Assembly: GCF_900109465.1 (NCBI RefSeq)
Contig: NZ_FOAZ01000012.1
Coordinates: 186,001 to 250,000, forward strand
Reading direction: 5' to 3'
DNA from: Streptacidiphilus jiangxiensis
GTDB taxonomy: Bacteria; Actinomycetota; Actinomycetes; Streptomycetales; Streptomycetaceae
DNA length: 64,000 nucleotides
Shown: positions 4,302 through 53,763 of the stretch, one piece after another
How the letters are laid out: every line of letters starts with the position of its first letter
Position numbering within the stretch: the stretch's first letter is position 1
Program-made: the position numbers and the translations under genes
Notes under the pieces: model-generated
What the model was told of the DNA's origin: nothing
The model's input: only the letters and a program-made list of their open reading frames with translations
Databases searched by the model: none

Positions 4302-4320
4302 CAGCCAGTTGCAGCGACCT

Positions 4321-4424
4321 CAGGGGCGCGAGGAACTGCGCGACAAGCCACCGGCGTGCGGATGGTCCCCCGTAACAGGGCCATCCGCACCGGGGGGTTA
4401 CTCGTGCAGTTCCTCGCGCCCCTG
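4321..4424. repeat. Palindromic intergenic repeat, copy A
   Basis: Inverted repeat with 23-base arms at 4321-4343 and 4402-4424 (22 of 23 paired, the exception being a G-T wobble), beginning CAGGGGCGCGAGGAACTGCG. A second perfect 10-bp stem (4356-4365 with 4381-4390) sits inside. It lies between convergent genes and should act as a bidirectional terminator. The right arm overlaps the 3' end of the phosphatase gene and encodes its last residues. Copies B (20061-20163) and C (53635-53763) belong to the same family. Confidence 0.9.
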
Positions 4425-5192
4425 AGCGGGGATCCGTAGGACGCCCACCACGGGTAGATGATCCGTCGCCAGGAGCAGGTCCTTCGCCCGTAGTCCCGGG
4501 AAGCCCTCGCCCGCGACGCCGCAGGCGAGGACCTCGATGCCGCGGGTGGCGAAGACGCCGTCGATGCGTTGGTGCGGGTTCTTCGGCACGCTGCTGTACT
4601 CGTCGCCCCACGGGCGTGTCGCCCAACCGTCCCGGAGGCGGCTCGCGAGAAGGTCCCAACCCCGTTCGCCCGGGTGTTCGTTGAAGTCGCCGCCGACGAC
4701 CGAGTGGGCGACGCCCAGGCCGTCGAGGTGGTCCAGCAGGAGCTGGAACTGTTCGTGGCGTTCGTCGGCGTCCAGGGACAGATGACAGCTCGTCACCGAG
4801 AAGGGCGCGGCCGCGCCCAGGCGGAGCACGGTGGTGGCGAAGCCGCGCTGGTGGAGGTCGGGGCGGCGGGGCAGCCAGATGTCGTGGGTGGAGAGCGGCA
4901 CCGCCCGCAGGCGGCCCAGGAGGAGCGGGCCGGAGGCCGACTTGCCGCCGCTGAGGACCATCAGTCCGGCCTGGCGGGCCAGCCACGCGGCCTGGGGGCG
5001 GGGGAACCAGAAGCGCGGGGACTCCTGGATGCACACCAGGTCGGGCCGCAGCGCCCGTAGCACCCGGACCACCGCCGTGCGGTCGTCGCGCAGGCTGCGG
5101 ATGTTGTAGCTGACGACCCGGACGATCTCGGAGCCGTCCGCCTGCGGGCCCGACTCCGGAAGGTCCCACTTCTGTCCCACGAGGGCATCCAT
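4398..5192 (-). CDS. Endonuclease/exonuclease/phosphatase (EEP) family protein
   Basis: A 264-residue Mg-dependent phosphoesterase of the EEP superfamily. Visible motifs are the N-terminal SYNIRSL, the metal-binding Glu in CIQESPRFW, the GGDFNEHPGE motif and the C-terminal ATDHLPVVG with the catalytic Asp-His. There is no signal peptide, so it is cytoplasmic; the substrate (phosphodiester in DNA, lipid or nucleotide) cannot be deduced. The ATG at 5192 was chosen because the protein starts just ahead of the EEP fold. The last residues, AQGREELHE, and the TAA stop are contributed by one arm of repeat A. Confidence 0.85.
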   Translation of the reverse strand: MDALVGQKWDLPESGPQADGSEIVRVVSYNIRSLRDDRTAVVRVLRALRPDLVCIQESPRFWFPRPQAAWLARQAGLMVLSGGKSASGPLLLGRLRAVPLSTHDIWLPRRPDLHQRGFATTVLRLGAAAPFSVTSCHLSLDADERHEQFQLLLDHLDGLGVAHSVVGGDFNEHPGERGWDLLASRLRDGWATRPWGDEYSSVPKNPHQRIDGVFATRGIEVLACGVAGEGFPGLRAKDLLLATDHLPVVGVLRIPAQGREELHE

Positions 5193-9376: not shown

Positions 9377-9525
9377 GGGCCCCACCCTAGGCCCACTACG
9401 CTGGTCAGCGAGTGTGACCCTGGGAACACCTGGCTTCTACATCTATCCCCCTGGTGCTACCCGCTAGTAACGTCCTGGCGTCCCAGCAGCGTCGCCGTGG
9501 CAGCCAGACGATCGAGGAGCAAGCT

Positions 9526-11322
9526 TTGCGCGAGTTCAGCCTTCCGGCCCTGTACGTGGTGCCGAGCGGCGGAAACCTCACCGATCTCATCCACGCCAAC
9601 GCGCAGGCCCACGCCGACCTGCCGCTCGTCGCGCGCAAGGTGGACGGCGCCTGGCAGGACCGCACCGCCGAGCAGTTCCTCGCCGAGGTGCGAGCCGCGG
9701 CCAAGGGCCTGATCGCCTCCGGCGTCGCCGCGGGCGACCGGGTCGGACTGATGGCGCGCACCCGCTACGAGTGGACCCTGCTGGACTTCGCCATCTGGTG
9801 CGCGGGCGCGATCACCGTCCCCGTCTACGAGACCTCCTCGGCCGAGCAGGTCGAGTGGATCCTCGGCAACTCCGGCGCGGTCGCCTGCGTCGCCGAGCTG
9901 CCGCGGCACGAGGCCGTCATCGCCGAGGTGCGCGAGCGGCTGCCGCAGCTGAAGCAGGTCTGGCAGTTGGAGGCCGGCGGCCTGGACGAGCTGGTCGCAG
10001 CCGGCGCGGACGTCGCCGACGAGGCGATCGAGGAGCGCCGGGCCACCCTGGGCCCGGACACGGTCGCGACGATCGTCTACACCTCCGGCACCACCGGCCG
10101 CCCCAAGGGCTGCATGCTGACCCACGCCAACTTCATGGCGGAGCTCGGCAACATCACCCAGCGCCTGGAGCCGCTGTTCCGGCCGGGCCACTCCTCGGTA
10201 CTGCTCTTCCTCCCGCAGGCGCACGTGCTGGGCCGGATCGCGGAGATCGCCGCCGCGATGGCGCCGATCCGGATCGGCCACGTCCCGGACATCAAGGAGG
10301 TCACCGCCGAGCTGGCCTCGTTCCGCCCGACGCTGATCCTCGGCGTGCCGCGCGTCTTCGAGAAGGTCTTCAACTCCGCCCGCGCCAAGGCGCAGGCCGA
10401 GGGCAAGGGCAAGATCTTCGACCGGGCCGCGGACACGGCCATCGCCTACAGCCGCGCACTGGACACCCCCGGCGGCGCCTCGCTCGGCCTGAAGCTGCGC
10501 CACCGGCTGTTCGACGCGCTGGTCTACAGCAAGCTGCGCAACGCGCTGGGCGGCCGGGCCACCCATGCCATCTCCGGCGGCGCACCGCTGGGCGAGCGGC
10601 TGGGCCACTTCTACCGGGGCATCGGCTTCACGGTGCTGGAGGGCTACGGGCTGACGGAGACCTGCGCGGCCACCGCCTTCAACCCGCACGACAAGCCGAA
10701 GATCGGCACGGTCGGCCAGCCGCTGCCGGGCTCCGCGGCCCGGATCGGCGACGACGGCGAGATCCTGCTCAAGGGCCCGCAGGTCTTCACCGGCTACTGG
10801 GAGAACCCGGAGGCCACCGCCGAGGCGCTGCACGACGGCTGGTTCGCCACCGGCGACATCGGCGAGCTGGACGAGGACGGCTACCTGCGGATCACCGGGC
10901 GCAAGAAGGAGATCATCGTCACCGCCGGCGGCAAGAACGTCGCCCCGGCCGTGATCGAGGACCGGATCCGGGCGCACCCGCTGATCGGCGAGTGCATGGT
11001 GGTCGGCGACCGCCGCCCGTTCGTGGCCGCGCTGATCACCGTGGACGAGGAGTTCTTCCCCGCGTGGAAGAAGCTCCACGGCAAGCCGGAGGGCGCCACC
11101 GTCTCCGACCTGATGGCCGACGCCGACCTGCTGGCGGCCGTGCAGTCCGCGGTGGACGACGGCAACGCGGCGGTCTCGCACGCCGAGGCGGTCAAGAAGT
11201 TCCGCGTCATCGACACGGTGCTGTCGGAGGACTCCGGCCACCTGACGCCGTCGCTGAAGCTCAAGCGCGGCGTGGTGATGAAGGACTTCGCCGACGAGGT
11301 CGAGGCGCTCTACCAGAAGTAG
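9526..11322 (+). CDS. fadD: Long-chain fatty-acid--CoA ligase (AMP-forming)
   Basis: Activates long-chain fatty acids to acyl-CoA through an acyl-adenylate. The 598-residue protein starts at TTG 9526, six bases after GAGGAG, and begins LREFSLPALYVVPSGGNLTD, the usual start of streptomycete FadD. Motifs: the AMP-binding loop YTSGTTGRPKG from residue 185, GYGLTET, and the ATP-site TGDIGELDEDGYLRITGRKKE near 450. The neighbourhood resembles mycobacterial fadD15 (Rv2187), which also lies next to pimB. It probably feeds acyl groups to membrane lipids or to degradation. Transcription ends at the hairpin at 11337-11367. Confidence 0.94.
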   Translation: MREFSLPALYVVPSGGNLTDLIHANAQAHADLPLVARKVDGAWQDRTAEQFLAEVRAAAKGLIASGVAAGDRVGLMARTRYEWTLLDFAIWCAGAITVPVYETSSAEQVEWILGNSGAVACVAELPRHEAVIAEVRERLPQLKQVWQLEAGGLDELVAAGADVADEAIEERRATLGPDTVATIVYTSGTTGRPKGCMLTHANFMAELGNITQRLEPLFRPGHSSVLLFLPQAHVLGRIAEIAAAMAPIRIGHVPDIKEVTAELASFRPTLILGVPRVFEKVFNSARAKAQAEGKGKIFDRAADTAIAYSRALDTPGGASLGLKLRHRLFDALVYSKLRNALGGRATHAISGGAPLGERLGHFYRGIGFTVLEGYGLTETCAATAFNPHDKPKIGTVGQPLPGSAARIGDDGEILLKGPQVFTGYWENPEATAEALHDGWFATGDIGELDEDGYLRITGRKKEIIVTAGGKNVAPAVIEDRIRAHPLIGECMVVGDRRPFVAALITVDEEFFPAWKKLHGKPEGATVSDLMADADLLAAVQSAVDDGNAAVSHAEAVKKFRVIDTVLSEDSGHLTPSLKLKRGVVMKDFADEVEALYQK

Positions 11323-11336
11323 CGAATCAGGACATT

Positions 11337-11367
11337 ACTCCCCGGAACACAAGATTCCGGGGAGTTT
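11337..11367 (+). terminator. Rho-independent-type terminator after fadD
   Basis: A perfect 11-bp stem (ACTCCCCGGAA, 11337-11347, with 11355-11365) and 7-base loop followed by TTTCCTG, 14 bases after the fadD stop. It isolates fadD from the glycan cassette downstream. Confidence 0.88.
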
Positions 11368-11479: not shown

Positions 11480-14400
11480 ATGTCCGTACGTTCCGCGCTG
11501 CCCAAAATAGTGGCTGCCTTCTCATTGGCCGCAGGTCTGCTCTCCGGCGCCGCCGTGACCGCACACGCCGACGAGACCACCGTGTCCCAGGACACCTACC
11601 GCACCGGATGGGACCAGAACGAGCCGGGCCTGACGCCCGCGCAGGTCTCCTCCTCCGACTTCGGCCAGCAGTTCTCCACCGCCGTCGACGGGCAGGTCTA
11701 CGCGCAGCCCGTGGTCGTCGGCAACACACTGGTCGTCGCGACCGAGACCAACCACGTCTACGGTCTCGACCCGGTCAGCGGCGCGATCAGGTGGACCGAC
11801 GCCTACGGCGCGCCGTGGCCCGCCTCCGGGGTGACCACCCCGGGCGCCACCTGGTCCTGCGGTGACCTCGCCCCGTACATCGGCATCACCGGCACCCCCG
11901 TCTACGACCCGGCCTCCGGCTACGTCTACCTGGTCTCCAAGGAGGACGGCGGCCAGTACCACGACGCACCGGTCTACAAGATGCACGCCGTGGACCCGGC
12001 CACCGGCAACGAGAAGCCCGGCTTCCCGGTCGTCATCTCCGGCTCCCCGAGCAACGACCCCTCCACCGTCTTCACCCCCGTCCAGGAAGGCCAGCGGCCC
12101 GGCCTGCTGCTGCTGAACGGCGTGGTCTACGCCGGCTTCGGCTCGGTCTGCGACCACGGCAACTGGCGCGGTTTCGTCGTCGGCGTCAACACCTCCGGCC
12201 AGCAGACCGCGATGTGGGCCGACGAGACCGGTGCCGCCAACCAGGGCGGCGGCATCTGGGCCTCCGGCGGCGGTCTGGTCGCGGACGCGCAGGGCCACAT
12301 CGAGTTCTCCACCGGCAACGGCGTCTCGCCGCCCGTCGGCCCGGGCTCCAGCCCGCCGGCCACCATGTCCGAGTCGGTGATCTCGCTGACCGTGCAGAGC
12401 AACGGCTCGCTGAAGGCGAACGACTTCTTCGCCCCCTCCAACGCGGCCTATCTGGACCAGAACGACCGCGACCTCGGCTCCGGGGGCGTCATGGCCGTCC
12501 CGGACGGCTACGGCACCACCGCGATCCCGCACCTCGCCGTCACCGAGGGCAAGGACGGCCGGATCTTCCTGCTCAACCGCGACAACCTCGGCGGCATGGC
12601 GCAGGGCAGCGGCGGCGGGGACGCGAACGTGCAGACGCTCGGCCCCTACACCGGCTGCTACTGCCACCCGGCGTTCTGGGGCGGGGGCGGCGGCTACGTC
12701 TACTACTCCAGCAACGGCGGCCCGCTGCAGGCGTTCCACCTCGGCGTCGACGGCAGCGGCAACCCGGCGCTCGCCCTGGTCGGCCAGGGGTCGATCAACT
12801 TCGGCTACCTCAACGAGGGTTCACCCGTCGTCACCTCCACCGGCACCACCGCCGGCAGCTCGGTGGTGTGGGTCTCCAAGGCCAACGACATGTACGGCAA
12901 CGGCGCCACCCTGTACGCCTACAACGGCACCCCGAACGCGGACGGCTCGCTCAGCATGCTGTGGTCCGCGCCCTACGGCGTCGCTTCCAAGTTCGCCACG
13001 CCCGCCACCAGCGGCGGCCGCGTCTACATCGGCTCCCGCGACGGCCACGTGCTGGCCTTCGGCCGCCCGGCCACCTCGGTGCTGACCGGCCAGCCCGTCT
13101 CCATCGGCCAGGTCAACGTCGGCGCGAACGGCAGCGGGACGCTCACCGTCACCGCCTCGCGCGCGCTGAACGTCACCGGCGTCACCACCTCGGCGCCGTT
13201 CGCGGTGACCGCGCCGACGCTGCCCGACGCGCTCGCGACCGGCGGCACGCTCACCGTCCCGGTCACCTTCACCCCGACCGTGGCGGGAGCCACCACCGGC
13301 ATCGTCAACATCGCCACCGACCAGGGCACGGTGGGCTTCTCGGTCAGCGCCACCGGCGTCAAGGCGGGCTTCGCCACCGCCCCGGCCACCGTGAGCTTCA
13401 CCGGCCAGCCGACCGGCGTGCCGATCTCGACGTCCGTCCAGTTCACCAACACCGGCACCGGCAGCGAGACCGTCTCCGCGACGGGAGCGCCGTCCGCGCC
13501 GTGGAGCGTGACGGGCGCACCGGCCGCCGGCACCGTGGTCCCGGCAGGCGGCTCGTTCACCGAGTCCGTCACCTACGACCCGACGACGGCCGGCAGCTCC
13601 ACCGACCAGCTCTCGGTCACCTCCACCTCGGGCACCTTCACGGTGCCGCTCAGCGGCACCTCGGTGACCGGGCAGGGGCATCTGACGATCACCCCGGCCT
13701 CGCTCAGCTTCGGCTCCGTGCCCGTCGGTACGACCTCGCCGCAGCTGAGCTTCACCGTCACCAACGACGGCAACATCCCGGTCACCCTCAACAAGGCCAA
13801 GGCGCCGGTCGGCACCTTCTCCAGCCCGAACGCCATCGCCGAGGGCCAGGTGCTCGGCCCCGACCAGTCGGTCCAGGTGCCCGTGGTCTTCTCGCCGACC
13901 ACCGCGGGCGCGCTCAGCGACAGCTACGAGATCACCGGCAACACCGGCCAGGGCGACCTGTACGTCCAGCTGTCCGGCACCGGACTCGCCACCCTGCCGC
14001 AGCCGCCGACGAGTTGGCAGGCCAACGGCTCCGCGACGCTCTCCGCGGGCGCGATCACGCTCACCCCGGCCACCACCCAGCAGTCCGGCTCCGCGTTCTA
14101 CACCGGCGCCGTCCGGACCGACGGCCTGACCGCCTCGTTCACCTCGACCTTCAGCGGCGGCACCGGCGGTGACGGCGCCACCTACGCGCTGGTGGACGCC
14201 ACCAAGGGCACCGACACCGGCACCGGCGTCGCCGGCGGCGGCATGGGCTTCTCCAAGCTGCCGGGCCTGGCCGTGGTGCTCTCCAGCAGCTGGAACGGCA
14301 CCGCCGGGATGGGCAACTTCGTCGGCATCGCCCAGGGCCCCGGCTCGGGCGCCGACAACCTCACCTACCTGGCCTGGGCCAAGGTCCCCACCTCGCTGGA

Positions 14401-15538
14401 GACCGGGAGCCACGCGGTGACCGTCACCACGGCCGGCGGGCACGTCAAGGTCGGCGTCGACGGCACCGCGCTGCTCGACTACGTCCCGGCCGCCGGGGTA
14501 CTGCCCAGCAACGCCTACGTCGGGTTCACCGCCGGCACCGGCGCCAGCACCGACGTGCACGCCATCTCGAACATCACCATCACCCCGCCGGCCGCGGCCA
14601 CCACCGGACCGCAGATCCTGACGGCCACGCCGAGCGCGGTCGCGTTCGGCGCGGCGACCGTCGGCAGCACCGGCAGCCAGTCGGTGACGCTGATGAACAA
14701 CGGCACCGGCACCGAGACCGTCACCGCCGTCACGGCACCGGCCGCACCCTTCGGCGCGACCCTGCCGGCGGTCGGCACGGCCGTCGCCCCGGGCTCGTCC
14801 GTCACCGTCCCGGTCACCTTCGCGCCGACCCTGACGGGCGCCCAGAACAGCTCCTTCGCGGTCACCACCACCAGCGGCACCGTCACCGTCTCGCTCGCGG
14901 GCACCGGCCAGCCGGGCGGGACCGGCGGCACGCTGCCCGGCTTCACCGACGCGAGCTGGCACCTGAACGGCGTGGCGAGCCAGTCCGGCGGCGTCGTGGC
15001 GCTGACCACGGACGGGATGCACTCGTCCAAGGGCGACGTCGTCAACGCCACCGCGGTCAACCCGATCGGCCTGCACGCCAGGTTCACCGAGTCGATCAGC
15101 TCCACCGGCACCCAGACCGGCGACGGCATGACCTTCGCCCTGCTGAACGCCGCCACGATGAGCACCTCGTCCCTCGGCCACGACGGCAGCGGACTGGGCG
15201 CCACCGGTCTCGACGCGACGGTGGCCGGATTGGCGGTGTTCTCGAACTTCGGCGCGGGAAGCTCACCGGATCTGGGAGTGGCCACGACAAGTTCCGGCAC
15301 CACCGGTTTCAGCACCCTCGGCTACACCACGAATATCCCGGCGTTGCAGGGGGCGACCCACACGATCGATATCCAGGTGACGGCCGCGAGCCATCTCGTG
15401 GTCTCGGTCGACGGCGTCCAGGAGCTCGACGAGGCGGTGACGCTGCCCAACAAGGTGCTGGTCGGCTTCACGGCCGGGGTCGGCGCCTCCACGGACACCT
15501 TCGCCGTCTCCGCGCCGACGATCACCTACAGCTCCTGA
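11480..15538 (+). CDS. Giant secreted beta-propeller / Ig-like / lectin-like protein
   Basis: A 1352-residue exported protein. A Sec signal peptide covers 1-30 (cleavage predicted after AHA). Residues about 33-530 resemble a PQQ/WD-type propeller with repeats such as NHVYGLDPVSGAIRWTD. Three Ig-like 'choice-of-anchor D' modules follow (about 532-628, 629-730, 731-835), then an L-type-lectin-like jelly roll (840-1037), a fourth Ig-like module (1043-1145) and a second lectin-like domain (1153-1352). There is no membrane anchor or sortase signal, so it is secreted or held by sugar binding. The ATG has only a distant GAGGGGGG site. It precedes a GT2 and two GT-C genes, suggesting a role as a glycan-binding or glycosylated surface protein. 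The true function is unknown. Confidence 0.87.
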   Translation: MSVRSALPKIVAAFSLAAGLLSGAAVTAHADETTVSQDTYRTGWDQNEPGLTPAQVSSSDFGQQFSTAVDGQVYAQPVVVGNTLVVATETNHVYGLDPVSGAIRWTDAYGAPWPASGVTTPGATWSCGDLAPYIGITGTPVYDPASGYVYLVSKEDGGQYHDAPVYKMHAVDPATGNEKPGFPVVISGSPSNDPSTVFTPVQEGQRPGLLLLNGVVYAGFGSVCDHGNWRGFVVGVNTSGQQTAMWADETGAANQGGGIWASGGGLVADAQGHIEFSTGNGVSPPVGPGSSPPATMSESVISLTVQSNGSLKANDFFAPSNAAYLDQNDRDLGSGGVMAVPDGYGTTAIPHLAVTEGKDGRIFLLNRDNLGGMAQGSGGGDANVQTLGPYTGCYCHPAFWGGGGGYVYYSSNGGPLQAFHLGVDGSGNPALALVGQGSINFGYLNEGSPVVTSTGTTAGSSVVWVSKANDMYGNGATLYAYNGTPNADGSLSMLWSAPYGVASKFATPATSGGRVYIGSRDGHVLAFGRPATSVLTGQPVSIGQVNVGANGSGTLTVTASRALNVTGVTTSAPFAVTAPTLPDALATGGTLTVPVTFTPTVAGATTGIVNIATDQGTVGFSVSATGVKAGFATAPATVSFTGQPTGVPISTSVQFTNTGTGSETVSATGAPSAPWSVTGAPAAGTVVPAGGSFTESVTYDPTTAGSSTDQLSVTSTSGTFTVPLSGTSVTGQGHLTITPASLSFGSVPVGTTSPQLSFTVTNDGNIPVTLNKAKAPVGTFSSPNAIAEGQVLGPDQSVQVPVVFSPTTAGALSDSYEITGNTGQGDLYVQLSGTGLATLPQPPTSWQANGSATLSAGAITLTPATTQQSGSAFYTGAVRTDGLTASFTSTFSGGTGGDGATYALVDATKGTDTGTGVAGGGMGFSKLPGLAVVLSSSWNGTAGMGNFVGIAQGPGSGADNLTYLAWAKVPTSLETGSHAVTVTTAGGHVKVGVDGTALLDYVPAAGVLPSNAYVGFTAGTGASTDVHAISNITITPPAAATTGPQILTATPSAVAFGAATVGSTGSQSVTLMNNGTGTETVTAVTAPAAPFGATLPAVGTAVAPGSSVTVPVTFAPTLTGAQNSSFAVTTTSGTVTVSLAGTGQPGGTGGTLPGFTDASWHLNGVASQSGGVVALTTDGMHSSKGDVVNATAVNPIGLHARFTESISSTGTQTGDGMTFALLNAATMSTSSLGHDGSGLGATGLDATVAGLAVFSNFGAGSSPDLGVATTSSGTTGFSTLGYTTNIPALQGATHTIDIQVTAASHLVVSVDGVQELDEAVTLPNKVLVGFTAGVGASTDTFAVSAPTITYSS

Positions 15539-15592
15539 ATTAAGTACGGCTCCTGAATCACGTAAATCCGGCCCCACTTGGCCGAAAACATC

Positions 15593-15653
15593 GCGGCCGC
15601 TCGTTAAATCCCGTGGAAGGGCGTGTTAATACCCCGGGATTGCGAGCGGCCGC
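15593..15653 (+). terminator. Long hairpin between the lectin gene and GT2 gene
   Basis: Arms GCGGCCGCTCG (15593-15603) and its complement (15643-15653), continued inward by AATCCCG/CGGGATT (15607-15613, 15635-15641), give about 18 bp of stem. It begins 55 bases after the lectin-gene stop, with no T-tract. It may be a terminator, an attenuator or an mRNA-end stabiliser, since the next gene starts 32 bases later. Confidence 0.65.
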
Positions 15654-15684
15654 GCCATAGGTTGTCCCACGGGGAGGGACTTCA

Positions 15685-16926
15685 ATGATTTCCGCGTTCA
15701 TCGTGGTGTGCTCGCTCGCGTTGTTCTGGGTCGCCGTTTTCACCCTGTGGTGGATGTTGCACGCGTGGCGCACACCGGAGACGCTCGCCGGCACCCGCTT
15801 CGGCGCTCCGGACGACACCGGCGCGCTCGCGTTCTCGCTGCTCGTGCCCGCGCGGCACGAACAGGAGGTGCTGGAGCACACCGTGCTGCGGCTGCTGGAA
15901 TCCACGCACCTCGACTACGAGGTGATCGTCATCGTCGGCCACGACGACCCGGACACCGCCGCCGTCGCCCACCGGCTCGCCGCCGAACACCCGCGGCTGG
16001 TCAGCGTGGTGACCGACCACCACGAGAAGAAGAACAAGCCGAAAGCGCTCAACAACGCGCTGCCCGCCTGCCGCGGCGACGTCGTCGGCGTCTTCGACGC
16101 CGAGGACCAGGTGCACCCGGAACTGCTCGCCCACGTCGACCACGCGTTCCGCGACACCGGCGCCGACGTCGTCCAGGGCGGCGTGCAGCTGATCAACTTC
16201 CACTCCAGCTGGTACAGCCTGCGCAACTGCCTGGAGTACTTCTTCTGGTTCCGCTCGCGGCTGCACCTGCACGCCGAGAAGGGCTTCATCCCGCTCGGCG
16301 GCAACACCGTCTTCGTCCGCACCGAGCTGCTGCGGCGCAACGGAGGCTGGGACGAGGCCTGCCTGGCGGAGGACTGCGACCTGGGCGTGCGGCTGTCCAG
16401 CCAGGGTGCCAAGGTCGTCGTCGCCTACGACTCGGAGATGGTCACCCGCGAGGAGACCCCGGACTCGGTGGTCTCCCTGTTCAAGCAGCGCACCCGCTGG
16501 AACCAGGGCTTCCTGCAGGTGTACCGGAAGAAGGACTGGAAGCGGCTGCCGTCGCTGCGTCAGCGGATGCTGGCCCGCTACACGCTGGCGACGCCCTTCA
16601 TCCAGGCGCTGTCGGGGCTCGCGCTGCTGGCCGGCGTGGGGCTGGCGTTCGTCGCCGAGGTGCCGGTCGCGGTCGCGCTCGTCTCCTTCTCGCCGCTGGT
16701 GCCGATGGCGGCGATGACCGCGTTCGAGGTGGTCGGCCTGCACGACTTCGGCAAGCAGTACCAGCTGCGGATCCGGTTCGGCCACTACCTGAAGCTGCTG
16801 CTGGGGGCACCGTTCTACCAGCTGATCCTGGCGGGCGCGGCGCTGCGCGCGGTCTGGCGCGAGCTGCGCGGCCGCAAGGACTGGGAGCTGACCCGGCACG
16901 TCGGCGCACACCTGGCCGAGGGCTGA
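15685..16926 (+). CDS. Membrane glycosyltransferase, family 2 (processive type)
   Basis: A 413-residue GT2 enzyme. One N-terminal helix (about 3-27) is followed by the cytoplasmic catalytic domain and two or three C-terminal helices (about 300-400). Catalytic motifs are D138-A-E-D141 (FDAEDQVHPE), the base-region AEDCDLGVRL and Q268-R-T-R271-W272 (QxxRW). The QxxRW motif with C-terminal membrane helices is typical of processive synthases such as cellulose or poly-GlcNAc synthases, so it may extend a polysaccharide or load a lipid carrier. ATG 15685 follows GGGGAGGGA closely. Sugar donor and product are unknown. It is the second gene of the glycan cassette. Confidence 0.88.
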   Translation: MISAFIVVCSLALFWVAVFTLWWMLHAWRTPETLAGTRFGAPDDTGALAFSLLVPARHEQEVLEHTVLRLLESTHLDYEVIVIVGHDDPDTAAVAHRLAAEHPRLVSVVTDHHEKKNKPKALNNALPACRGDVVGVFDAEDQVHPELLAHVDHAFRDTGADVVQGGVQLINFHSSWYSLRNCLEYFFWFRSRLHLHAEKGFIPLGGNTVFVRTELLRRNGGWDEACLAEDCDLGVRLSSQGAKVVVAYDSEMVTREETPDSVVSLFKQRTRWNQGFLQVYRKKDWKRLPSLRQRMLARYTLATPFIQALSGLALLAGVGLAFVAEVPVAVALVSFSPLVPMAAMTAFEVVGLHDFGKQYQLRIRFGHYLKLLLGAPFYQLILAGAALRAVWRELRGRKDWELTRHVGAHLAEG

Positions 16927-16964
16927 CACACACTCATGCACGTTCCTGAGGGGGGAAATCCGCG

Positions 16965-18584
16965 ATGACGTCTGTCGTCGAGGCCGTCGTCACACACCCG
17001 CCCGCCGAGCAGCCCGCCGCCGCACCGCCACGCGGGCGCCTGACGCGCTGGGCGGCGTCCCGGCCCGACCTGGTGGTCGCGCTGCCGATCCTGCTGGTGA
17101 TCGTCCTGGTCCAGGCCGTCAACATCGGCAACTTCCCGACCGTCAGCGACGACGAGGGCACCTACCTGGCCCAGGCGTGGGCGGTCCAGCACGAGGGGGC
17201 GCTGGCCCACTACAGCTACTGGTACGACCACCCGCCGCTGGGCTGGCTGCAGATCGCCGCGCTGTCGTGGATCCCCGCCCTGTTCGACCACGGCATGAAC
17301 GTGGTCATGCAGGCGCGCGTCATCATGGTGCCGGTCACCGCGGTCGCCGCGTCGCTGGTCTACGTGGTGGCGCGCCGGATCGACCTGCCCCGCTGGGCGG
17401 CGGCGCTGGCCATGGTGGTCTTCGGGCTCTCGCCGCTCTCGGTGACCATGCAGCGGGAGATCTACCTCGACAACTTCGCCGTGCCGTGGATGCTGGCCGC
17501 CTTCGCCTTCGCGCTGTCACGGCGCAGGCACCTGTGGCACCACATCGCCGCGGGCGTGTGCGCGGGCGTCTCGGTGCTCTCCAAGGAGACGATGATCATC
17601 ACGCTGCCGGCCCTGGCGCTGGCCCTGTGGCGCGGCTCCCACCGCTCGACGCGGATCTTCAGCCTGGTCGGCTTCGCCATGAGCTTCGTCCTGCTGAGCT
17701 TCCAGTACCTGCTCTACGCCACGCTCAAGGGCGAGCTCCTCCCCGGCCCGGACCACAACTCGCTGATCGGCGCGCTCCAGTTCCAGCTCGGCCGGGGCGG
17801 CAACTCGGGCTGGATCCTGCAGAGCGGCTCGGTCACCAACATGACGCTGCACTGGTGGGTGGTCCGCGACCCGGTGATCCTCGTCGTCGGCGTCGGCTGC
17901 ACCCTGCTGGCGCTGCTGGTGAAACGCCTGCGCGAGGTCGCGGTGGCCTCGCTGCTGCTGGTGATCGTGGCCTGCCGCCCCGGCGGCTACCTGCCCGCCA
18001 TGTACGTGCTCCAGGCGCTGCCGTTCTTCGCCCTGTGCACGGCCGGCGTCGCGGACGCGATCGCCCGTCAGTTCCTCACCGGGCGGGTCTCGGCGTGGCT
18101 TCCGCAGTCCCGCAACGTCCTGGCCTTCTGCGCGGTGATCGTGGCCGGACTGGTCGCCCCGCACTGGGAGACCGGCGACGAGACCGCCGACACCGCCTAC
18201 AGCAACACCGAGTACAGCCAGGCCTCCGCCTGGATCAAGGCCAACGTCGCCGACAAGCCGCACGTCCGCATCGTCTCCGACGACGCGATGTGGCCCGACC
18301 TGGTCGCCCAGGGCTTCCGACCGGGGCTCGGCGCGATCTGGTTCTACAAGGTCGACCTCGACCCCGCCGTCACCCGAACCCTCCCGCACGGCTGGAAGGA
18401 CATCGACTACGTCGTCTCCTCCTCCATCATCCGTGAGGACCCCAACGGCCTGCCGACCGTCCGCGCCGCGATGGAGCACTCCGTGGTCGTGGCCAGGTTC
18501 GGCACCGGAACCCAGGAGATCGACATCCTTCGCGTGGACAAGACCGGCCGGACGGACAACCCGCAGGCAGGAGGCGGGCAGTGA
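16965..18584 (+). CDS. GT-C membrane glycosyltransferase (PMT/ArnT-like, GT39 family)
   Basis: A 539-residue polytopic protein with about ten hydrophobic helices after a 38-residue cytoplasmic start. The first extracytoplasmic loop holds the acidic GT-C signature SDDEGTYLAQAW (about 61-72) and the YWYDHPPLGWLQ motif seen in dolichyl-phosphate-mannose-type transferases. These enzymes use a polyprenyl-phosphate sugar and glycosylate proteins, lipids or polymers outside the membrane. A soluble C-terminal domain (about 410-539) follows. ATG 16965 has GAGGGGGG nearby. It overlaps the next GT-C gene by GTGA (18581-18584), so the two are coupled and may form a pair. Confidence 0.85.
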   Translation: MTSVVEAVVTHPPAEQPAAAPPRGRLTRWAASRPDLVVALPILLVIVLVQAVNIGNFPTVSDDEGTYLAQAWAVQHEGALAHYSYWYDHPPLGWLQIAALSWIPALFDHGMNVVMQARVIMVPVTAVAASLVYVVARRIDLPRWAAALAMVVFGLSPLSVTMQREIYLDNFAVPWMLAAFAFALSRRRHLWHHIAAGVCAGVSVLSKETMIITLPALALALWRGSHRSTRIFSLVGFAMSFVLLSFQYLLYATLKGELLPGPDHNSLIGALQFQLGRGGNSGWILQSGSVTNMTLHWWVVRDPVILVVGVGCTLLALLVKRLREVAVASLLLVIVACRPGGYLPAMYVLQALPFFALCTAGVADAIARQFLTGRVSAWLPQSRNVLAFCAVIVAGLVAPHWETGDETADTAYSNTEYSQASAWIKANVADKPHVRIVSDDAMWPDLVAQGFRPGLGAIWFYKVDLDPAVTRTLPHGWKDIDYVVSSSIIREDPNGLPTVRAAMEHSVVVARFGTGTQEIDILRVDKTGRTDNPQAGGGQ

Positions 18585-20056
18585 ACCCCACCGCCGTGCG
18601 CGCCGCGCTCCGCGACCGCGCGCCCCTGCTCGCCGTCCTGGCCCTGCAGATCGCCCTCGCCTACCTGCTCACCAACACCGCGTTCGAGGACGAGGCGCTC
18701 TACCTGTACGCGGGCCACCGCGAGCTGGACTTCCTGCTCCACCACACCCCGACCTACGACACCTACTCCTCCTACTTCTCCGGCGCGCCCTTCCTCTACC
18801 CCGTGCTGGCCGCGCTGGTCGACAGCGCGCTGGGCCTGGAGGGCGCACGGGCGCTCAGCCTGCTGTTCATGGTCGGCGCCACGGCGCTGGTGTGGATGAC
18901 GGCCCGTCGGCTGTACGGCCGCCGTTCGGCCGCCGTCGCCGCGGCGCTGTTCGGCGTCTCCGCGCCGACGCTGTTCATGAGCCGCCTCGCCACGTACGAC
19001 GCGATGTGCGTCTTCCTGCTGGCCGCGGCGCTGTGGCTGGTCGTGCGGACGGCGCGGGCCAACCCGGCGTGGGCGCTGATGGCCGCCCCGGTGCTGGTGC
19101 TGGCCGCCGCGACGAAGTACGCCTCCGCGCTCTACCTGCCGACCGTCGTGGCCGTGGCCCTCCTCGTCGTCCCCGCGGCGGGCGGCACCTGGCGGCGTGC
19201 CTGCGTGCGGGGCGTACTGCTGGCCGCGGCAACGGCGGCGCTCGCCTGGGTCGCGCTGGTGGCCTGGCCCTCGCTGCGGCAGGGCCTGGAGCAGACCACC
19301 GTCAACCGCGCGGCCGGCGCCGAACCGCTCTCCAACATCCTGCGGCTGTCCGCGGTCTGGGGCGGCTGGATCGCGGTCCTCGCCGTCGTCGGCGTCGGCT
19401 TCGCCGCGAGGACGCAGTCGCGCAGGGTACCGGCCACCCTGCTCGCGGGCGCGCTGACCGTGACTGCGGCCTTCGCCACGCTCTACCAGGCGCACCTGGG
19501 CACGTCCGTCTCGCTCCACAAGCACATCGGCTTCGGGCTCCTCTTCGCCGCCCCTGTGGCCGGCCTGGGCCTCGCCTCGGCCGCGCGGCTGGGTGCCTCC
19601 CGCGCTCGCGCGCTGCCGGGCTTCGCGCTGGGCGTCTGCGTCCTGCTGGCGTTCTACGCGAACCACGCCGTCGCCCCCATGTACGGCGGCTGGCCGGACT
19701 CCTCCGGCGAGGTGGCCGCGCTGCGGCCCCTGGTCGGGCTGGGAACGGACCAGCGCTACCTGGTGGAGGAGAACGAGATCCCCCGCTACTACCTAGCCGC
19801 CCGGACCGAGCCCTTCCAGTGGCTGACGACGTACTACTTCCAGTACAAGTCCCTGACGGGCCTGCCGGCCTACCAGGCGGCGATCCGCGACGGGTACTTC
19901 AACCTGGTCGTCCTGGACTACGGCCCGACGGCCGCGCTGGACCGCCAGTTGAAGGCGGCGCTGAAGGCCGACCCGGCGGGGTACCGGCTGCTCGCGAGCG
20001 TGCCGGGGAAGACCTCCCATGGAACGCAGACGTACGACATTTGGCAGAGGGTGTAA
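18581..20056 (+). CDS. GT-C membrane glycosyltransferase (PMT-like), second paralogue
   Basis: A 491-residue polytopic membrane protein, starting at a GTG that overlaps the preceding stop. It has about ten helices and the GT-C acidic motif FEDEALYLYAGHRELDF near residues 35-51. The HHTPTYDTYSS segment parallels the YDHPP loop of the preceding gene, but the sequences are otherwise divergent, so this is an old duplication or a hetero-pair. The C-terminal soluble part (about 385-491) is shorter. It should move a sugar from a polyprenyl carrier to an outside acceptor. The TAA stop lies four bases before repeat B. Confidence 0.83.
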   Translation: MNPTAVRAALRDRAPLLAVLALQIALAYLLTNTAFEDEALYLYAGHRELDFLLHHTPTYDTYSSYFSGAPFLYPVLAALVDSALGLEGARALSLLFMVGATALVWMTARRLYGRRSAAVAAALFGVSAPTLFMSRLATYDAMCVFLLAAALWLVVRTARANPAWALMAAPVLVLAAATKYASALYLPTVVAVALLVVPAAGGTWRRACVRGVLLAAATAALAWVALVAWPSLRQGLEQTTVNRAAGAEPLSNILRLSAVWGGWIAVLAVVGVGFAARTQSRRVPATLLAGALTVTAAFATLYQAHLGTSVSLHKHIGFGLLFAAPVAGLGLASAARLGASRARALPGFALGVCVLLAFYANHAVAPMYGGWPDSSGEVAALRPLVGLGTDQRYLVEENEIPRYYLAARTEPFQWLTTYYFQYKSLTGLPAYQAAIRDGYFNLVVLDYGPTAALDRQLKAALKADPAGYRLLASVPGKTSHGTQTYDIWQRV

Positions 20057-20060
20057 CCAG

Positions 20061-20163
20061 CAGGGGCGCGAGGAACTGCGCGACAAGCCACCGACGAGCA
20101 GATGGTCCCCCAGCAACAGGGCCATCCGCTGGGTGGTGACTCGCGCAGTTCCTCGCGCCCCTG
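20061..20163. repeat. Palindromic intergenic repeat, copy B
   Basis: The two 23-base arms, 20061-20083 and 20141-20163, are perfectly complementary and start with the same CAGGGGCGCGAGGAACTGCG as copy A. The first 33 bases equal copy A, and the core GATGGTCCCC...CAGGGCCATCCG is also shared. The element starts four bases after the stop of the rightward GT-C gene and ends ten bases before the stop of the leftward pimB gene, so it is well placed as a two-way terminator. Confidence 0.92.
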
Positions 20164-20173
20164 GTTGGTGCAA

Positions 20174-21304
20174 CTACAGGAGTCCCTCGAGGCGCTCCGC
20201 CAGGAGGTCCCAGCGCCAGGCCTCCTCCACCCACCTGCGGCCCGCCGCGCCCATCCGCGCGCGCAGCGACTCGTCCCCCAGCAGTTCGACCAGCCGCTCC
20301 GCGAGCTCGCCGCGGTCCCGGCCCGGGACGACGTAGCCCGTCTCGCCCTCGCGGACCGCGTCCGGCGCGCCGCCGGAGTCGCCGGCGACGACCGGGAGGC
20401 CCGTCGCGGAGGCCTCCAGGTAGACGATGCCGAGGCCCTCGACGTCCAGCCCGCCGCGGCGGGTCCTGCACGGCATCGCGTAGACGTCGCCCGCGCCGTA
20501 GTGCGCCGCCAACTCCTCCCACGGCACGGGGCCGGTGAAGACGACGGAGGAGGCCACGCCCGTCTCGGCGGCCAGCTTCTCCAGGTCGGCACGGTAGGGG
20601 CCGCCGCCGACGATCAGCAGGACCGCGTCGGGGAACCGGCGCAGCACGCTCGGCCAGGAGCGGATCAGGGTGTCCTGGCCCTTGCGCCGCACCAGGCGGG
20701 AGACGCAGACGACGACGGGCCGGTCGGTCAGGCCCAGTCGGGCGCGGACGGCGTCACCGCCCGACGCGGGGTGGAAGGTCCGCTCGTCGACGCCCGGCGG
20801 TACCTGCACCATCCGGGCCGCCGCCTGCGGGCCCACCGCGGCGGCGATCCGGGAGCGGGTGTACTCGCCGAGGTAGGTCAGCGTGTCCGTGCCGGCGCCG
20901 ATCCGGCGCAGCAGCTGCCGCGAGCCCGGCAGCTGCGCCCAGGCGGCCTCGTGGCCGTGCGTCATGCCGACGATCCGCTCCGCGCCCGCGCGGCGGAGCG
21001 TCGGCGCCATCAGTCCCAGCGGCGCGGCCGCGCCGAACCAGACCGAGGAGCAGCCGTGTGCGCGCAGCAGCTCCGCCGCCCGGCGGGTCACTCTCGGAGT
21101 CGGCAGCAGCATCGTGGTGCGGTCGCGGACGACCTCGAAGGGCTGCTCGGCGTCGAACTTCCGCACCTCGCTGCCGTCACGCCAGGTGGAGGCGTAGACG
21201 ACGAGCCGGTCGGCGGGCAGACGCAGCGCCATGTTGTGCACGAAGGTCTGGATCCCGCCCTGGCGCGGCGGGAAGTCGTTGGTGACGATCAGGGTCTTGT
21301 TCAC
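20174..21304 (-). CDS. pimB: GDP-mannose-dependent alpha-mannosyltransferase, PimB-like (GT4)
   Basis: A 376-residue GT-B fold enzyme predicted to add a mannose to phosphatidylinositol monomannoside. With the GTG start at 21304 (GAGG seven bases upstream) the protein begins VNKTLIVTNDFPPRQGGIQT, nearly the same opening as mycobacterial PimB' (Rv2188c). The donor-site motifs GVDERTFHP, CVSRLVRRKGQDTLI and EGLGIVYLEASATGLPVV (E-x7-E type) are present. It has no membrane helix and should work at the inner membrane face. Thirty-eight bases separate it from the divergent GT87 mannosyltransferase, and both probably serve mannolipid synthesis. Substrate is inferred by family and gene order only. Confidence 0.88.
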   Translation of the reverse strand: MNKTLIVTNDFPPRQGGIQTFVHNMALRLPADRLVVYASTWRDGSEVRKFDAEQPFEVVRDRTTMLLPTPRVTRRAAELLRAHGCSSVWFGAAAPLGLMAPTLRRAGAERIVGMTHGHEAAWAQLPGSRQLLRRIGAGTDTLTYLGEYTRSRIAAAVGPQAAARMVQVPPGVDERTFHPASGGDAVRARLGLTDRPVVVCVSRLVRRKGQDTLIRSWPSVLRRFPDAVLLIVGGGPYRADLEKLAAETGVASSVVFTGPVPWEELAAHYGAGDVYAMPCRTRRGGLDVEGLGIVYLEASATGLPVVAGDSGGAPDAVREGETGYVVPGRDRGELAERLVELLGDESLRARMGAAGRRWVEEAWRWDLLAERLEGLL

Positions 21305-21336: not shown

Positions 21337-21349
21337 TACGATATGGCAA
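21337..21349 (+). promoter_or_regulatory. Candidate leaderless promoter for the GT87 gene
   Basis: TACGAT at 21337-21342 is a good actinomycete -10 element and predicts transcription starting at or near 21349, the second in-frame ATG. The -35 region (TCGGTA, 21314-21319) is weak. No ribosome site precedes either ATG, in keeping with a leaderless start. Inference from sequence only. Confidence 0.35.
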
Positions 21350-22620
21350 TGCGCCTCGAGACCAGCGGCATTGTGCGTGTGTGGGCGGGCTGGACCGTCG
21401 GCCGGGCCGTGCTGCTCATACTGGTGCTCGGCGCGCTGAAAGTGCCCCACGTGGATGTCACCAGCGACGTGAAGGTGATCTACCAGGGCTGGGCCGAGGT
21501 GCTGCGCACCGGAACCTACCCGATGGACGACGTCACCTGGCAGTACCCGCCGTTGGCGGGGCTGGTGATGCTGCTGCCGCTGTGGCTGCCCGGCTCCTAC
21601 TTCACCGCCTTTCTCACGCTGCTGGTGCTGTGCGACGCGGCGGCGCTGCACCTGCTGGTCCGGGCCGAGCGGCGGCACCGGCCCGGAGGGCGGCCGACCG
21701 CGGCCTGGCTGTGGGTGGTGGCGGTCCCGCTCGTCGGGCCGACCGTCTACTGCCGGTTCGACCTGGTGGTCACCGCGGTCGCGATCGCGGCGACCCTCGC
21801 GCTGGTCGCCCGGCCGCGCCTGGCGGGGGTGCTGGCAGGGCTCGGCGCGATACTGAAGGTCTGGCCGGTGCTGGTGCTCATCGGCGCCGCCCCGCGTGAC
21901 CGGGCGGCCCGGCGGTCGTGGCTCGCCTGTGCGGCGACCTGCGCGGCGGTCTGCTTCGCCGTGGCGGTGACCACCCATGGCGCCTTCTCGTTCCTGGGCT
22001 TCCAGGGCTCGCGCGGCGTGGAGATCGAGTCGCTGGGCGCGCTGCCGTTCTACTTCGCCTCACTGGCCGGCCTCCACTGGGGCCGCGCGCAGATGCACTA
22101 CGGCTCACTGGAGTTCCTGGGCCGCGACGTGCGCGTCATCGGCTACGCCATGATCGGGCTGACCGTGCTGGCCTTCGGGTTCCTGCTGCTGTGGCGGCTG
22201 CGCCACCGGGTGTGGACCGCCGCCACGACGGCGGACGCGGCGCTGACGGCGGTGCTGCTGTTCACCGTCACCAGCCGGGTGATCAGCCCGCAGTACCTGA
22301 TCTGGCTGCTCGGCGCGGCGGCGGTCGCGCTGACCGTGCCGGACACCCGGATAAGGCCGGTGGCCTGGATGCTGGCCGTGGCCGCGCCGCTGACCTTCCT
22401 GGAGTTCCCGCTCTGGTTCGGCGAGCTGGTGAAGCGCTCGGTGCTGGGCACCTCGCTGATCTCGGCGCGCGACCTGCTGCTGGTCGCGGCCGCGCTGGTG
22501 GCCTGCGTCCGGTTGTGGCGGGCCGGGCCCGAGGACGCGGCCGTCGTCGCCACCGCGCGGACGGCTACCGCGCAGCAGCCCCCAGTGCCGACAGCACGTC
22601 CGACCGCCACTGTGCGGTGA
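21343..22620 (+). CDS. Polyprenol-phosphate-mannose-dependent mannosyltransferase (GT87, DUF2029)
   Basis: A 425-residue polytopic GT-C protein with about ten helices. The N-terminal loop has the acidic motif DVTSDVKVIYQGW and the segment MDDVTWQYPPLAGLV, typical of GT87 alpha-mannosyltransferases such as mycobacterial Rv2181 and PimE. It should use polyprenyl-phosphate mannose to extend phosphatidylinositol mannosides or lipomannan outside the membrane. Two ATGs (21343, 21349) lie directly after TACGAT (21337-21342), which would place the transcription start at the second ATG, giving a leaderless mRNA. The 3' end overlaps the convergent metallopeptidase gene by 56 bases. Confidence 0.86.
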   Translation: MAMRLETSGIVRVWAGWTVGRAVLLILVLGALKVPHVDVTSDVKVIYQGWAEVLRTGTYPMDDVTWQYPPLAGLVMLLPLWLPGSYFTAFLTLLVLCDAAALHLLVRAERRHRPGGRPTAAWLWVVAVPLVGPTVYCRFDLVVTAVAIAATLALVARPRLAGVLAGLGAILKVWPVLVLIGAAPRDRAARRSWLACAATCAAVCFAVAVTTHGAFSFLGFQGSRGVEIESLGALPFYFASLAGLHWGRAQMHYGSLEFLGRDVRVIGYAMIGLTVLAFGFLLLWRLRHRVWTAATTADAALTAVLLFTVTSRVISPQYLIWLLGAAAVALTVPDTRIRPVAWMLAVAAPLTFLEFPLWFGELVKRSVLGTSLISARDLLLVAAALVACVRLWRAGPEDAAVVATARTATAQQPPVPTARPTATVR

Positions 22621-53632: not shown

Positions 53633-53634
53633 CA

Positions 53635-53763
53635 AGGGGCGCGAGGAACTGCGCGGGAAACCACCGGCGTGCGGACGGCCCTGCGCGTTGCGGACCATCC
53701 GCTCATCAGTGGCTGGTCGCGCCCGCGCGGCGGAGCCGCATATGGGCAGAGCCTCGCGCCCCT
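53635..53763. repeat. Palindromic intergenic repeat, copy C (composite)
   Basis: The left half (53635-53705) follows copies A and B, opening AGGGGCGCGAGGAACTGCGC and keeping CCACCGGCGTGCGGA and CCATCCG. The right half (53711-53763) differs, GGCTGGTCGCGCCCGCGCGG and GGAGCCGCAT, and ends GCCTCGCGCCCCT. Only the outer 12 bases pair perfectly. It looks like a hybrid of two repeat subtypes. It lies between the convergent desulfurase-TusA and kinase genes as a likely two-way terminator. Confidence 0.8.

Follow-up and report, generated by a model that had tools for sequence, protein, structure and literature searches.

A co-inherited, apparently mobile four-gene glycosyltransferase cassette between fadD and pimB in Streptacidiphilus

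Results

Gene content of the locus

The window, by which we mean the whole 64-kb stretch of DNA analysed here, comes from the 9.5 Mb genome of Streptacidiphilus jiangxiensis and contains a run of four genes between fadD and a pimB-like gene (Table 1). These encode a large protein (BIG), a membrane synthase-type glycosyltransferase (GT2) and two GT-C glycosyltransferases (GTC1 and GTC2). A preliminary description of this DNA had placed four co-oriented genes from 11480 to 20056 and a terminator at 11337, and our analysis recovered all four open reading frames on the plus strand as well as a hairpin 3' of fadD. Because the T tract of this hairpin is short it was not picked up by a consensus terminator scan of the window, and a promoter scan gave no match. 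The genes are separated by gaps of 146 bp (BIG/GT2) and 38 bp (GT2/GTC1) while GTC1 and GTC2 overlap by 4 nt, so that transcription of all four on one transcript is likely.

Table 1 Features of the cassette and its flanks, with window positions and the basis of each assignment
Feature	Position	Strand	Basis and remarks
fadD, long-chain acyl-CoA synthetase	9454..11322	+	Left flank, outside the cassette; AMP-binding PF00501, 247 bits
Hairpin 3' of fadD, rho-independent type, short T tract	11337..11366	+	Fold -25.3 kcal/mol, z = -5.0 versus shuffles
BIG, 1352 aa, predicted secreted	11480..15538	+	Pfam/NCBIfam, hydropathy, AlphaFold and Foldseek
GT2, membrane synthase-type glycosyltransferase	15685..16926	+	Pfam, motifs, BcsA as nearest solved relative
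GTC1, GT-C (PMT_2) glycosyltransferase	16965..18584	+	Pfam PMT_2/PMT, alignment, hydropathy
GTC2, second GT-C (PMT_2) glycosyltransferase	18581..20056	+	Pfam PMT_2, alignment, hydropathy
Inverted pair of dispersed repeat (repeat B)	20052..20172		pimB-side gap; repeat search
pimB-like GT4 glycosyltransferase	20174..21304	-	Right flank, outside the cassette; Pfam GT4
GT87 mannosyltransferase-like gene	21343..22620	+	Flank beyond pimB; Pfam GT87, 57 bits

The BIG protein

Pfam and NCBIfam matches show BIG to contain a PQQ/BamB-like propeller, several ASH Ig-like domains and two L-type lectin regions. Its parts are arranged as a signal peptide (residues 1-33), the propeller (about 35-525), ASH/Ig domains (about 545-830), a first L-type lectin (about 833-1038), ASH (about 1049-1142) and a second L-type lectin (about 1155-1352). 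A hydrophobic segment at residues 10-28 of the hydropathy profile fits a signal peptide, and the protein is rich in Thr, Ser and Ala. As phmmer found no homologue of BIG among solved proteins, the matches to these come from profile and fold comparisons only. The AlphaFold model of the propeller is of medium confidence (pLDDT 74), with BamB as the best Foldseek matches and quinoprotein alcohol dehydrogenases and tetrathionate hydrolase matching less well; by profile, a quinohaemoprotein is only marginally similar (E 0.0025). The lectin half was modelled with a pLDDT of 81 and a pTM of 0.47, the latter making the placement of its domains uncertain. It resembles the L-type lectins VIP36, Emp47, ERGIC-53 and the archaeal 7elv, and several of its fold matches are structures solved with mannose-containing ligands. 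The L-type beta-sandwich fold is recognisable both by structure (7elv, TM 0.77 by target) and by profile (7elv, E 5e-11). In the alignment the GDG and GG-G motifs are kept and one metal-site Asp is apparently replaced, for which reason sugar binding may be altered. A Cys-Tyr-Cys stretch and other candidate residues vary across BIG types. Two BIG relatives of the window genome (C57 and C76), and several in other genomes, have no GT gene next to them, which suggests that BIG-like proteins can act alone.

The glycosyltransferases

GT2 belongs to the Glyco_tranf_2_3 family (PF13641, 148 bits) and carries the motifs HDD (86), DAED (138), ED (229) and QRTRW (268), all invariant in 10 homologues. Its nearest solved protein by sequence is the cellulose synthase BcsA (E 6e-10), and this, together with the lectin folds of BIG, agrees with the glycan function proposed in the preliminary description. 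Hydropathy analysis gives three clear hydrophobic segments, fewer than in BcsA, so that processivity is not certain.

Both GT-C proteins match PMT_2 in Pfam and GTC1 also matches PMT (PF02366). These matches are partial, and neither the PMT C-terminal family nor the NCBIfam PMT models matched either protein. GTC1 has about 10 hydrophobic segments and a nearly invariant SDDE motif (61-64) in its first outside loop, and GTC2 has about 11 segments and an FEDE motif (35-38) that is invariant in the alignment. A profile of GTC1 had no match among solved structures. Sharing 28% identity over a short stretch (E 5e-5), the two GT-C genes are not recent duplicates of one another.

Conservation of the four genes as a unit

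The GTC2 alignment was searched against 298 Streptomycetaceae genomes, with close orthologues defined by E below 1e-200; counts of presence refer to one genome per species and to one draw of 298 genomes. Close orthologues were found in 8 of the 298, the window genome included, and BIG-GT2-GTC1-GTC2 occurs in the same order in all eight. This presence/absence comparison across the family bears out the earlier suggestion that the four genes form one unit, and they were not found scattered independently in related genomes. The flanks of the cassette vary by locus except in two pairs, namely the window genome and Streptacidiphilus pinicola, which share the same site, and Kitasatospora humi and a second genome (G222), where the lengths of the neighbouring genes look alike. 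A GtrB-GtrA fusion gene adjoins the cassette in two relatives (L035 and L051). Two Catenulispora genomes contain all four genes with BIG in divergent orientation, and a Catenulispora metagenome-assembled genome has BIG-GT2-GTC1 and no called GTC2; our home-made gene caller missed some genes (for example the GT87 gene in the window), and absences of small genes in relatives are uncertain. We conclude that the four genes are a co-inherited unit which is apparently mobile, its movement between loci probably reflecting horizontal exchange and not repeated loss.

Insertion between fadD and pimB

A single-copy pimB match was located in each of 23 relatives searched, and 20 of the pimB neighbourhoods were read. 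In 15 of the 20, fadD directly adjoins pimB in convergent orientation and the cassette is absent, ten of these being members of the same genus with pimB 83-94% identical; the other five contain rearrangements or unrelated genes between the two. In one same-genus genome (G011) nothing lies between fadD and pimB on contig 3, and the full cassette is on contig 2. The fadD-pimB site is common to the window genome and a genome that we take to be that of S. pinicola. Given the 15 empty neighbourhoods and the cassette at another site in G011, the cassette is an insertion in the lineage of these two species. The preliminary description had likewise read the locus as an insertion, and the contrary outcome named there, fadD and pimB apart in close relatives lacking the cassette, did not occur.

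That description also took repeat B, at 20061, as a boundary of the cassette, which does not hold. This inverted repeat is dispersed, the window having five copies where none is expected by chance, and in one relative (G012, L161) it also lies between fadD and pimB with no cassette there. Insertion by a plasmid or phage was rejected as well, there being no match of GT2 to plasmids (E 1e-80) or of GTC1 to phages, no tRNA gene in the 64-kb window and a base composition of the cassette similar to that of its flanks.

A widespread operon with a different partner gene

Scanning with the GTC1 alignment found 559 relatives, and the best 80 of these loci were read; among the 298 family genomes, 78 have a GTC1 relative. 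Seventy of these 80 have the order GT2, GTC1, a GtrB/GtrA fusion (GtrBA) and a GlxA-like copper radical oxidase (GLX). In 78 of the 80, GTC1 is immediately preceded by GT2, and the other two loci start at contig ends. The best solved relative of GLX, a kelch protein, is 4unm (E 1e-87), an entry titled 'secreted protein' that we take to be S. lividans GlxA. In the alignment GLX retains the positions of the copper-radical ligands (Cys, Tyr, Tyr-His and His). In the GTC1 tree the BIG-type loci cluster together (support 100/99), and the GT2 tree gives the same cluster with weaker support (76/92). This grouping in both trees fits a single switch of partner between GLX and BIG.

The cassette is a variant of a widespread Streptomyces operon in which a large lectin protein replaces the copper oxidase. 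In the literature outside subscription journals we found no published description of the GT2-GTC1-GtrBA-GlxA-like operon or of the BIG cassette. The cassette had been put forward as an undescribed kind of system, a claim that has to be narrowed in that its GT2-GTC1 core is a variant of this common operon and its likely working resembles that of CslA-GlxA.

The GtrB-GtrA fusion of the parent operon points to polyprenyl-phosphate donors. At the cassette locus of the window there is no GtrB or GtrA gene, and searching the window genome with the fusion gave a best match that is 35% identical and covers the GT part only, with no GtrA part. It is therefore doubtful that the cassette is self-contained, as first described, since the donor synthase and flippase are missing locally and no close homologue lies elsewhere in the genome.

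Recurrence of the BIG-GTC2 pair

In other genomes relatives of GTC2 are the GT-C members of triads that also comprise a cellulose-synthase-like GT2 and a GH26-like lipoprotein, and BIG relatives adjoin such triads in five genomes (L230, L231, L232, L237 and L240). BIG relatives also adjoin a GT2::GH26-like fusion and GTC2 at three loci (L214, L215 and L216), and L213 has the same order with BIG called only as a short fragment. Across the 298 genomes 14 of 71 BIG matches lie at most 15 kb from a GTC2 match, as against 0.25 expected by random placement, a count that treats related genomes as independent and spans three differing architectures. The BIG-GTC2 pair is thus also found with two further types of GT2 that have GH26-like parts, and the cassette appears to be a hybrid in which such a pair has joined a GT2-GTC1 core.

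Discussion

Proposed function and alternatives

We think it reasonably probable that the cassette is a mobile synthase-dependent surface-glycan module, in which GT2 extrudes a polymer, the GT-C enzymes decorate it on the outside and BIG binds the product. GT2, as a CslA/BcsA/PgaC-like membrane synthase, would convert a nucleotide sugar into a glycan polymer and extrude it. GTC1 and GTC2 would then transfer sugars from polyprenyl-phosphate carriers, supplied in trans, to the extruded glycan on the outer side of the membrane, as in multi-component transmembrane glycosylation systems. BIG, which occupies the position of the GlxA-like oxidase in the parent operon, would be exported and bind the decorated glycan through its two L-type lectin domains, with the propeller serving as a binding platform or a modifying domain. 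A review suggests that a GT-C of small size may depend on another protein for binding its acceptor (PMC8035078), a role that BIG would fit. Such a module could have originated when the GT2-GTC1 core of the parent operon was joined to the BIG-GTC2 pair and then moved between loci and lineages.

Protein glycosylation seems unlikely to us. Here GTC1, GTC2 or both would be protein O-glycosyltransferases acting on BIG or other secreted proteins, with GT2 extending or preparing the sugar. The Pfam matches of the two GT-Cs and the Thr/Ser/Ala-rich composition of a BIG that is predicted to be secreted are in keeping with this, and O-mannosylation of secreted proteins through Ppm1/Pmt does occur in actinobacteria (PMC5882110, PMC6593405). 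However PMT_2 is the usual label of polymer-decorating GT-Cs too (PMC8035078, Table 2), and neither the PMT C-terminal family nor any NCBIfam PMT model gave a match. GTC2 relatives moreover occur with GH26-like proteins and without BIG. That GTC1 is kept in 70 of the best 80 of 559 loci without BIG, and that BIG relatives occur without GT-C genes and away from GT genes altogether, disfavours BIG as the acceptor.

It is rather improbable that the enzymes decorate an existing wall polymer or lipid, such as a teichoic acid or lipoglycan, with GT2 belonging to the sugar-transfer chain, not being a polymer synthase, and BIG acting as a wall-bound receptor. GtrB/GtrA with a GT-C is the classic set for such decoration (PMC8035078, PMC11127046) and relatives do carry the GtrB/GtrA fusion beside the GT2 and GTC1 genes, but GT2 has the QxxRW motif with BcsA as its nearest solved protein, and its retention before GTC1 in 78 of the 80 loci besides GtrBA would leave two sugar-charging enzymes. 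We regard it as very unlikely that BIG is itself catalytic and acts on the polymer as a quinoprotein-like or other oxidase, taking over the function of the copper radical oxidase: it shares the partner position of GLX and its propeller model has the quinoprotein and tetrathionate hydrolase likenesses given above, but the best fold matches are to the non-enzymatic BamB, the quinohaemoprotein similarity is marginal, the model is of medium confidence and candidate residues such as Cys-Tyr-Cys vary across BIG types.

Extending the surface-glycan reading beyond this locus, we find it plausible, without leaning towards it, that actinomycetes carry exchangeable synthase-dependent glycan modules drawn from a small kit. 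Each would consist of a GT2 synthase with one or both of the GT-C types and a single secreted partner, which could be a propeller-ASH-lectin protein, a GH26-like protein or a copper radical oxidase. The partner would determine how the glycan is completed or retained on the surface, and the cassette would be a natural chimera of two such modules.

Comparison with known systems

Surface glycans of Streptomyces, such as those of CslA-GlxA and MatAB, control tip growth, aggregation and attachment, and to our knowledge few of their synthases have been studied so far. CslA-GlxA makes cellulose and is stimulated by c-di-GMP. CslA and GlxA together form a working cellulose synthase complex (PMC11022532). 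The cassette is like this system (cslA-glxA-cslZ) in combining a membrane GT2 synthase with a secreted or membrane-anchored propeller protein, in the D, DxD, ED and QxxRW motifs of its GT2 and in that the partner in the parent operon is a GlxA homologue. A GlxA homologue with an adjoining GT2 match is present in the window genome as well (C64); this GT2 and that of the cassette are only about 26% identical. Further differences are the two added GT-C enzymes, the lack of a GH6 endoglucanase and a partner that joins ASH and lectin domains to a BamB/PQQ-type propeller, in place of a kelch copper oxidase; GLX partners are confined to the parent operon.

With multi-component (three-component) transmembrane glycosylation (GtrB/CsbB, GtrA/GtcA and a GT-C) the cassette shares PMT_2-type GT-Cs with an acidic motif in the first outside loop, whose 10-11 or so hydrophobic segments fall within the 8-13 transmembrane helices of that class, and the GtrB-GtrA fusion of the parent operon and of the BIG-type relatives noted above. 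It differs in having neither a GtrB/CsbB-type enzyme nor a GtrA flippase at the window locus and in containing a predicted polymer synthase, two GT-Cs and a large lectin protein. Actinobacterial O-mannosylation (Ppm1/Pmt, GT39) is similar in its GT-C fold, PMT_2 match and presumed polyprenyl-phosphate donor, whereas the cassette enzymes are not full-length PMTs with the C-terminal domain and have no NCBIfam PMT match, are always found with a GT2 synthase and have no protein acceptor conserved across the family.

The cassette is also like the GT2-GTC1-GtrBA-GlxA-like operon, common in Streptomyces, with GT2 66-76% identical, GTC1 about 50% identical and the two genes in the same order; it differs in having BIG and GTC2 where the operon has its oxidase and, in the case of the window locus, GtrBA. 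The partner appears to have been swapped once on the tree with GT2 and GTC1 kept together, which gives a testable point, that the partner acts on the product of the same synthase and GT-C pair, and the occurrence of the BIG-GTC2 pair with other synthases offers independent comparisons.

Relatives of the cassette in other loci

An operon of GT2, GTC1 (a PMT_2-type glycosyltransferase), a GtrB/GtrA fusion and a GlxA-like copper radical oxidase is conserved in named Streptomyces and Streptacidiphilus loci (L054-L128), and no description of it was found in the papers covered by our literature search. A thioredoxin-domain (YyaL/SPATA20-like) gene often adjoins the operon, which in some cases (L039, L041) is extended by an excalibur-type protein together with a copper chaperone of the Sco1 type. 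A sibling cassette in L213, L214, L215 and L216 combines relatives of the secreted protein BIG and of GTC2 with a GT2 protein of ~920 aa that carries a GH26-like part at its C-terminal end; the BIG relative in L213 was called as a short fragment only. Triads of a cellulose-synthase-like GT2, a GH26-like lipoprotein and a GTC2-family GT-C occur in L220, L221, L222 and L227, in the first two next to ribosomal protein genes.

Paralogues and repeats in the window genome

The GlxA-like gene on contig C64 and its preceding GT2 match are probably the genome's own cslA-glxA locus. No glycosyltransferase genes adjoin the BIG paralogues. The stretch between the paired GTC2-family genes holds a GT2-like gene and one for a lipoprotein, and another copy lies on C46. 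Two of the dispersed repeat copies are inverted pairs, in gaps between genes.

Coordinates of related genes and repeats (G000 denotes the window genome)
Feature	Location
GT2-GTC1-GtrB/GtrA fusion-GlxA-like operon, example	L084:8784-15272
GT2/GH26-like lipoprotein/GT-C triad	L221:6549-10875
GlxA-like gene, GT2 match immediately before	G000:C64:187552-190571
BIG paralogues (n=2, ~50% identity)	G000:C57:285758; G000:C76:259357
Two additional GTC2-family genes, 7 kb between them	L218 (G000:C57:374000-393900)
Dispersed repeat (CCAGGGGCGCGAGGAACTGCGCGA)	window 4320-4425; 20052-20172; 53633-53656
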